Source of the DNA: Cristatella mucedo
Lineage: Eukaryota; Bryozoa; Phylactolaemata; Cristatellidae
Assembly (NCBI GenBank): GCA_009760855.2
Contig: WPIO01000015.1
Coordinates: 1,909,001-1,973,000 of the forward strand
DNA length: 64,000 nt
Direction: 5' to 3'
A program made the translations under genes and the position numbers. Positions 9,001 through 12,000 of this stretch are shown in pieces. Each line of letters starts with the position of its first letter. Within the stretch, counting starts at the first letter, position 1. The notes beneath the pieces were generated by a model. That model was given only the letters and a program-made list of their open reading frames with translations, did no database searches and was not told the origin of the DNA.

Positions 9001-12000
9001 ATTTCAATGCCAAAACAGTGGCAGCTTGATTGGTGTCAGTCGGAGGGCAAGCCGAAACGTCACCCGAAAGAGGAGGCTCGAGCTAAATTCAAAACGGTCG
9101 TGTTTTCTTTGTCGGGCGCTCTTTGTTGGAAGGAGAGAGAGAGAGAGAGAGAGAGAGAGAGAGAGAGAGAGAGAGAGAGAGAGAGAGAGAGAGAGAGAGA
9201 GAGAGAGAGAGAGAGAGAGAGAGAGAGAGAGAGACAGACAGACAGACAGACAGACAGACAGACAGACAGACAGACAGAGAGAGAGAGACAGACAGACAGA
9301 CAGAGACAGAGAGAGAGATGGAGACGGAGAGACGGAGAGAGAGACAGACAGACAGACAGACAGACAGACAGAGAGACACACACACACACACACACACACA
9401 CACACAGACGGAGAGACAGAGAGGGAGGGAATTTTAATGAGCAGCCTGCTTTTTGGGCCCAGGCAGCCACTGAGGGGGTGGCCCTTACTCACACAGGTCA
9501 TGGGTTCGAGTCCTACAGCAGGCAATCCTCTGTTGGATAAATAGGATGGCAGTTTCTAAGGCTCTTATGCTACTGGTAAATGAGGTTCTGTTGAATCAGA
9601 CGACCTTTGCGTTTATTGGCCACTTTGTTTTAGCTCAACGCTTAAGTGCTTAGACTTCATGGACTCAGCCCGTTGATATGAGTCCTGCTGCAATCAATTC
9701 TTTATTTTCTGCTACGAGCAGTTGAAAGTCGTTAAAGTGCTTCTTCTGCTATGAAAGTGAGGCTGCCAAACAGCTGAACCTGACTCTTTTTGGTATTGTC
9801 CATTTAGATCACCCTTAAGCCAACCCCATAGTAACCTAAGAAACTAGGAAGACCTGCTGGTAAGGTTCTGGCACTTCAGGTCGTAGGTTTGAGTTCTGAA
9901 GCAAGCCTGGAGGAATGGTACTCTGCTAAGACTCTTCCGTTGCTGTATTCACGAGACTGTTGAATCAGCAGACCTTTACTGTACTAGTGGCCACTCTTTT
10001 AGTGGCTTACGGTTAAGGGTGCAGCTGATTCCTTGCTCTTGATTCCTACCTGGTCATTTCTCGCATTGAGTGGAAGGTTATTATTGGGAGTGGGTCTCCT
10101 GCGGTTTCTTCTATGGAGCTGCAAAGTCAACATGAAACAGGGTTATAAATTGGGATAGAATTCAGCTCTGCCCGCCTCTGTGGTGCTGCTGATTAGCTTT
10201 TCAATAATAATAATAATAATAATAATAAGAAGAATAATTAAAACTTAATAAGCACCCTAAGAGAACTAATCTCTATCTTGGTCCTTTAGGTATTTGCCGG
10301 AAAAAAGGCATGTCATTTGGTATCACAAGTACAATTTTACATGCAGGAGCATATTGGACAATGCATGCTGACTGAGCAAATGCTGTGATGAGCAGTTGGG
10401 TCTTTACATCCTTTTTAAATGTCCTCAAGTCAGGGGATGTTGTGCCATCAGTCCGGAATGAAGTTACAGTTTTTGGGGTATTTTAACTACAGGTGACAGT
10501 TAAAGAAAGAGAAGCCTGTAGGGGTGGCATTGGTTTCAGTCGATCGAGCAGTTGGTCGATTTTGGCCTGTCTCTGTCATAGTAAACAGGCCAAGAGTATC
10601 GTCGATAATCACGTCTCTATTGGTGGTTGCATGCACATTTAAGAGGCATTCGATGGGAGCCCATTAAAAAGAGTGACCACCGGTGATATACACTAGTGGC
10701 TATAAGTTTGCCACCCATTCCAATTGTGGCAACCTGGTCGACAATTGCTGTTGGCAGTTTCAAAATCAACCCCGAGGTTCCAAACAAGGGTAGTTTATGG
10801 TAATAACCAAACACACTATTTATTTAGCATGAAAGACATAACACAGACATAGAAGCAATCGTGCTAGTAGGATGTGGTCTCTTTTTGACTAGAGATCACG
10901 GAGTCTACTATTCGGGCTGGCATGGACTCGGCAAGTTTCAGAGTTACATAGGATCCTAGAGCATGCCAAACCGCTTGCACTTTGTCCCATAGTTTGGCCG
11001 CTGATCTGATGTTGCTGTCTAGAGTTCTCAGCCGATGCTGAACCTTGTCCCGTAAATGTCCAAATCAGGTTAAAGTTCGGGCACTGGATTGGCCAAGGCA
11101 AGCGAGTTAAACAGGGTACCTCTCGAGAAACTCTCGCACAAATCTGGCAGTATCTTTCGGATCTTTTATTTGTTGATAAATAAAATTAGGCCTACCAGTC
11201 GTATTGCACTTGCCACAGCAACGTTGTCCAGGATTCTCAGATAGTCAACATTATTCATTATGCCCTCAATGCCAGTGAAAACCCCAACATCGACTGCTGC
11301 GATGCCTCTCCACTCCATCATTGATCAGGACCCGAACTTCGCAGTATGCTGCAAGCAGGCATCAGCATTTGCTTGGTCACTCCTGCTTCGAGCATAGGAT
11401 CTGTGTTTGTAGGTGCCATAAACGGCAAACTTACTTTCGTGGGTAAAGAATAGTCACCTGCAATCTTTGGCCATCCAGTGACTGTGCTGCCATGCTCATG
11501 CAAGGCGTGCTCCCTTGTTGGCTCCTGTCTGTCAGTAGCGAAGCTTTCTTTGCTACCCTTGCTATCAGGCCGTGCTCGTTAAGCTTTTGCCTCACCGACT
11601 CCTCGCCGACGCTCGTGCCGATGCTAAGCTCGAGTGTTTTGGCATGGATTCGAACGAGTGCAAAATGGACCTTTATGCATTCCCATTTTAAGAGCCTATC
11701 GTCCCTCTAGTACAGTGGCTCTCAGCCTTCCTAATGCGGCAATCCTTTAATACAGTTCCTTATGTTGTGGCGACCAATAATAAAATTATTGTGCTCAAAA
11801 TGTGGAAATGCATGTTTTCCGATGGTCTTGGGTGATTCATATGAAAGGGTGGTTCGACTCCCAAAGGGGTCGCGACCCACAGGTTGAGAACTGCTGCTCT
11901 AGATGCAGGCTGGTTCTTCATCGTCCCTAGACATTTAAGGAATTTTATATCGGACAGCTTTCTTACTTACTCCCAGCTTCCCAGCTATATCTTGGTTGAT

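Follow-up and report, generated by a model that had tools for sequence, protein, structure and literature searches.

SPIN is a textbook example of DNA that has passed between widely separated animals. Its non-autonomous members in tetrapods, hAT elements named SPIN_NA and URR1 and represented below by an uncurated SPIN_NA sequence, presumably carry short terminal inverted repeats of the form CAG(T/C)GGTTCTCAACC..., and we take an 8-bp target-site duplication of the pattern nnnTAnnn to be the form left by SPIN (hAT, Buster group).

The presence of SPIN in an invertebrate has precedents, a SPIN-like hAT having been reported from Biomphalaria and SPIN from Rhodnius. An excerpt of PMC5440852 describes, in Biomphalaria glabrata, a hAT present in approximately 1,000 copies whose identity to SPIN is significant, and states that the DNA transposons of this host are not recent invaders and that intact transposases were undetected. 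Two non-autonomous SPIN elements, SPIN_NA_12_RP and SPIN_NA_13_RP, are named from Rhodnius prolixus in an excerpt of PMC11614815. SPIN hosts beyond squamates are not given in the excerpts available of PMC5791352, PMC11008031, and PMC13155389. In another family, OC1_Das_NA of the Tasmanian devil is described as an internally deleted hAT MITE of 192 bp that arose in a single burst, with a mean divergence of 5.4% (PMC3621081, in excerpt).

Here we analyse a stretch of 64,000 nucleotides from the genome of the bryozoan Cristatella mucedo, referred to throughout as the window, in which a short element with hAT-type ends interrupts a Tc1-like repeat. We are confident in regarding this element as an old, internally deleted, non-coding hAT of the SPIN family (Buster-type), which a SPIN transposase acting in trans would have mobilised. 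Taken alone, the window element is ordinary: a dead MITE within a dead Tc1-like element.

The window element and its Tc1-like nest

The element occupies 184 bp of the forward strand (11713-11896). It is classed as a non-autonomous SPIN-type hAT MITE of a short subfamily, whose consensus is 187 bp long, on the evidence of its own genomic copies and of a match to mouse genomic text. The 5' terminal inverted repeat, cagtggctctcagcc (11713-11727, forward strand), corresponds to CAGTGGTTCTCAACC at the start of a consensus of 28 copies, while the 3' terminal inverted repeat, ggttgagaactgctg (11882-11896, minus strand; reverse complement cagcagttctcaacc), corresponds to GGTTGAGAACCGCTG at its end. 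When the 15-base ends are paired by eye, 11 of 15 positions agree in the window copy and 14 of 15 in the consensus. Immediately outside the ends lie the two unstranded copies of a target-site duplication: on the left ctctagta (11705-11712), with the central TA of the nnnTAnnn pattern found in the family, and on the right ctctagat (11897-11904), as read from the sequence. The two are identical at six of eight bases. A reading made earlier from the sequence only had described a 184-bp element with SPIN-type ends and this same 8-bp duplication, and its length, ends, and duplication are all confirmed at these positions. The 64-kb window contains no second copy; the strongest other match in it spans 13 bases. 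The MITE is gene-free, its size and build leaving no space for a transposase gene.

To the left of the MITE is a decayed Tc1-like repeat on the minus strand (10900-11704), given here as the stretch that was searched. A probable continuation to the right, also on the minus strand (11905-12200), was recognised by eye from the minus-strand frames of the empty site, and its limit is a guess. The 805-bp left flank is multi-copy and shares 69-80% identity with its counterparts across the genome (261 candidates, of which 40 were scored, giving 43 match rows with the window included), and its minus-strand frames have by eye the appearance of a broken Tc1 transposase. Five Tc1-like pieces were compared with Pfam. 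One gave a weak match to HTH_Tnp_Tc3_2 (E 0.0017, with 19.1 bits where the cut-off is 31.5); the remaining four, including the sole piece from the right side, gave no transposase match, and comparison of the HTH-matching piece with PDB sequences returned nothing relevant. The multi-copy flank and the one weak Tc3-type HTH match support the earlier claim of nesting, in a dead repeat that is Tc1-like.

Because the MITE sits inside the Tc1-like insertion, it is the younger of the two; divergence, too, is greater in the Tc1-like family than in the SPIN family. To the sequence-only reading, the preservation of the MITE had suggested a later arrival. The later arrival follows from the nesting and agrees with the larger Tc1-like divergence, but to speak of preservation goes too far: among the 28 copies compared, none is more diverged than that of the window (K2P 0.119, where the mean is 0.062).

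Other features of the window and of the assembly were also recorded. A non-LTR retroelement at 54423-57212 on the forward strand has an open frame of 929 aa with endonuclease and reverse transcriptase, and a broken relative with endonuclease lies at 39720-40760; others recognised by eye occupy 41153-41860, 44500-45093, and 46666-47292. TPR-repeat stretches and, after them, a stretch with a CHAT domain, which we take to be TTC28-like, are found on the forward strand at 5742-6344 and 17668-26881 and are probably part of a host gene that runs across the window. Tandem repeats comprise a 13-bp minisatellite of 12.8 copies (8620-8785) and a 122-bp repeat of 2.7 copies (53008-53330). Outside the window, the mitochondrial contig (G000:C688, with loci L015 and L016; 20,000 of its 21,008 bp were read) contains long stretches repeated in both direct and inverted orientation at about 2.5-3.4, 11.6-12.5, and 13.7-14.6 kb. 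By eye, nd2 and cox2 are on the strand opposite the other genes read, and nd1-nd6-cob-nd4L-nd4-nd5 are on one strand, an order that we take to be the lophotrochozoan arrangement. AGA and AGG stand at several of what we assume to be conserved serines and AAA at presumed lysines, and the code is presumably not that of vertebrates, echinoderms, or flatworms. COX1 pieces in contigs C166, C83, C549, and C299 are probably nuclear copies.

A short subfamily in the Cristatella mucedo genome

When the genome (572,011,866 bases) was searched with the window element, 2,089 first-look candidates were returned, of which 40 were scored. Besides the window itself, the 39 other scored places match at 84-88% identity across 177-184 of the 184 bases, and in view of these copies the window element is beyond chance. 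A hand-typed consensus used as the query gave 2,329 candidates; scoring 40 of them produced 41 match rows and a top copy that is 96% identical. The contig that carries the window copy is 7 Mb long, and copies of the family are spread over many large contigs. That these vertebrate-like repeats are contamination of the assembly is exceedingly unlikely given this distribution, the position of the window copy within a repeat that has many copies of its own in this genome, and a junction peculiar to the short subfamily.

The 187-bp consensus and all divergence values derive from 28 of the 40 scored places, the 12 others being left out. The mean K2P distance to the consensus is 0.062 (6.2%), or 0.049 without CpG, values that are biased low since these 28 copies are the nearest to the query. 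The mean pairwise K2P distance among them, 0.121, is approximately twice the distance to the consensus, a ratio expected of a burst from a single source. The star is near but not pure: 65 minor variants are common to at least two copies and 119 are single, so that the copies carry some subfamily structure or recurrent mutations. The genome-wide search for copies and the comparison with their consensus, both proposed by the sequence-only reading, return a multi-copy family with a measurable distance from its consensus. The short subfamily looks old, because the best of the 40 scored copies is only 96% identical to the consensus. None of the scored copies is recent, and these should be the best ones.

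Target-site duplications are a property of the family as well as of the window copy. In 22 of the 28 copies the flanking 8-mers agree at no fewer than six of eight positions, as they do in just 61 of 756 mismatched pairings; a central TA is present in at least one flank for 26 of the 28, and the duplications fit nnnTAnnn. Among the six failures, L003, L084, and L091 share 3-5 of 8 bases, L077 and L096 have an altered 3' end, and L080 has both ends with the duplication absent.

Assignment to SPIN, a longer subfamily, and the search for a transposase source

The ends of the 28-copy consensus (CAGTGGTTCTCAACC ... GGTTGAGAACCGCTG) agree with the inverted-repeat form given above for SPIN, and the uncurated SPIN_NA consensus matches the 28-copy consensus at 80/81 positions on the 5' side and 85/85 on the 3' side. 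Identity below about 75% to any SPIN consensus over the full length had been named by the sequence-only reading as speaking against SPIN; with this reference, which is not a curated one, the window copy matches at 69/78 and 75/84 over the two ends. Between the shared ends are 22 bp (GTGTGCAAAATGTGGAAATGCG in the short consensus) that have no counterpart in the uncurated SPIN_NA, the last nine of which recur in a longer form in this genome.

Published mouse sequence extends the comparison. Mouse genomic text in an excerpt of a paper on knockout mice (PMC8376875) matches the 28-copy consensus at 67/80 positions from the exact end inward, with a score of 90 where shuffled sequences reach a maximum of 24. 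Two mouse primers given in an excerpt of PMC2767504 match the same consensus at 18/19 and 18/20, and a mouse primer given in an excerpt of PMC6221546 matches it at 18/18. The window copy alone matches the mouse text at 50/62 (score 64, shuffled maximum 23) and primer R1 at 14/14, while its match to primer R2 is not above shuffles (score 19, maximum 20). We take the mouse repeats, in the text and in the primers, to be SPIN/URR1.

A core of the uncurated SPIN_NA, 83 nt long and absent from the window, was used as a further query. It resembles the short consensus at 22/27 positions only. In the genome it returned 86 candidates, the 40 scored of which match at 86-94% over 59-70 nt, with E-values to 1e-18. 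In an alignment of 11 of the 12 fetched loci (L102 was left out), the SPIN 5' end and the core occur together in nine; the two others are cut on the left, and most 3' ends were unread. A further stretch of this long form, 77 nt in length, gave 89 candidates, of which the 40 scored match at 88-97%. The copy at C77:668088-668565 is complete, with 478 bp and a perfect duplication, CACTAAAA, on both sides. The initial 81 bp of the long consensus are identical to those of the short consensus (81/81). By predicting a second subfamily, the core put the uncurated SPIN_NA sequence to a genuine test, though one that does not replace a database. Since a long subfamily with the SPIN_NA core shares the genome, the short form is most likely derived from a longer SPIN through internal deletion. 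The long form also matches the mouse genomic text (PMC8376875, in excerpt) at 78/95 positions, with a score of 58 and a shuffled maximum of 14. At loci L100 and L108, SPIN 5' ends and cores run by eye into other sequence that is similar between them, a junction that may mark a third SPIN-derived subfamily.

An alternative is that the element belongs to some other hAT family, such as OC1/OposCharlie1 or a Charlie/MER type, with a likeness to SPIN that is limited to the terminal repeats. Ends of the form CAG..TTCTCAA.. are common to several hAT families, and by eye the genome contains broken transposase pieces that are Charlie/Buster-like. OC1 also forms non-autonomous elements of around 190 bp (PMC3621081, in excerpt). 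However, the match to the mouse text extends 80-95 bases inward from the end, the internal primers match at 18/20 and 18/18, the uncurated SPIN_NA core retrieves a longer subfamily, and the five Charlie/Buster-like loci checked have no SPIN-type ends. We therefore consider membership of another hAT family unlikely. The SPIN-like hAT MITE of the sequence-only reading is upheld by the ends, the nnnTAnnn duplications, the mouse match, and the second subfamily, and the SPIN assignment appears well supported, with the label itself resting partly on uncurated sequence.

The sequence-only reading had also called for a search for an autonomous SPIN transposase. A profile search of the genome with PF05699 gave 138 match rows, 63 of them with scores of at least 69 bits and 75 weaker; a search with PF18658 gave 145. 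Thirty of the 63 strong PF05699 loci were read, as were 20 of the 75 weaker places, each extended by about 3 kb in both directions. At E 0.1, the 20 weak loci and their flanks hold no match to SPIN, and neither do the 30 strong loci, which look like copies of a different, young hAT and whose 5' ends lie outside the DNA read. All 50 were dropped as candidates for an autonomous SPIN, and no SPIN transposase was found among these 50 loci of the 138 rows. When 91 of the 138 PF05699 places are compared with 105 SPIN places, the closest pair is 13.3 kb apart. In other collections, the 3'-end pattern has no match in viral_contigs, and a shorter pattern of 18 bases has 10 exact matches in prokaryote genomes, approximately the number expected by chance in 257 billion bases.

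The young hAT family, to which the 63 PF05699 rows of at least 69 bits appear to belong, is an observation in its own right. Several open frames of 635-642 aa were found in this very young hAT, for example at L041 (G000:C19:1010804-1011040 and flanks), to which the 29 other copies read are 99.0-99.8% identical in the longest aligned piece. The family may still be active. Three of the weak PF05699 places, L060, L064, and L065, are by eye pieces of it.

Proposed history and comparison with known systems

We propose that a SPIN founder entered this lineage by horizontal transfer and that an internal deletion in a longer SPIN then gave rise to the short form. A SPIN transposase supplied from another place in the genome would have bound the matching ends and excised the element, mobilising it in trans, before inserting it into an 8-bp nnnTAnnn target, in the present case within a resident Tc1-like element. 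The short subfamily would have expanded in roughly one burst, after which activity presumably ended and the copies decayed by mutation.

Entry by horizontal transfer would be the likelier route. The opposing possibility, that SPIN was inherited vertically from an ancient animal ancestor, is very unlikely: the scored copies differ from their consensus by only about 6%, and the non-coding consensus is 82-85% identical to a single mutated stretch of the mouse text, which would be too similar for a protostome-deuterostome split. The published hosts, moreover, are scattered (PMC11614815 and PMC5440852, both in excerpt). Cristatella mucedo is possibly a new host record for SPIN. We advance only tentatively, and with rather less than even confidence, the wider reading that this is an animal group without recorded SPIN, reached by an independent horizontal transfer, in which a private short subfamily arose beside a long form of vertebrate type. 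If that reading is true, the form that arrived and the derivative it gave rise to locally coexist in a single genome. Every added SPIN host, dated by its burst, narrows which ecological links carried SPIN, and comparison with other hosts at the level of subfamilies could place the transfer, for which about 2,000 short-form candidates and the long form are at hand here.

Among described systems, the closest is the tetrapod SPIN_NA/URR1, with which, on the uncurated sequence, the family shares both consensus ends (80/81 and 85/85) and 8-bp duplications. The long subfamily also carries the SPIN_NA core, whereas the short subfamily is without this vertebrate-type core. The SPIN-like hAT of Biomphalaria glabrata is alike in having an invertebrate host, a likeness drawn from the description excerpted in PMC5440852 and not from sequence. 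Rhodnius prolixus, compared likewise through the excerpted description in PMC11614815, resembles Cristatella mucedo in harbouring two forms of SPIN in one invertebrate host. Finally, OC1_Das_NA belongs to a different family (OC1), yet as described in the excerpt of PMC3621081 it has the same mode of life as the short subfamily found here.
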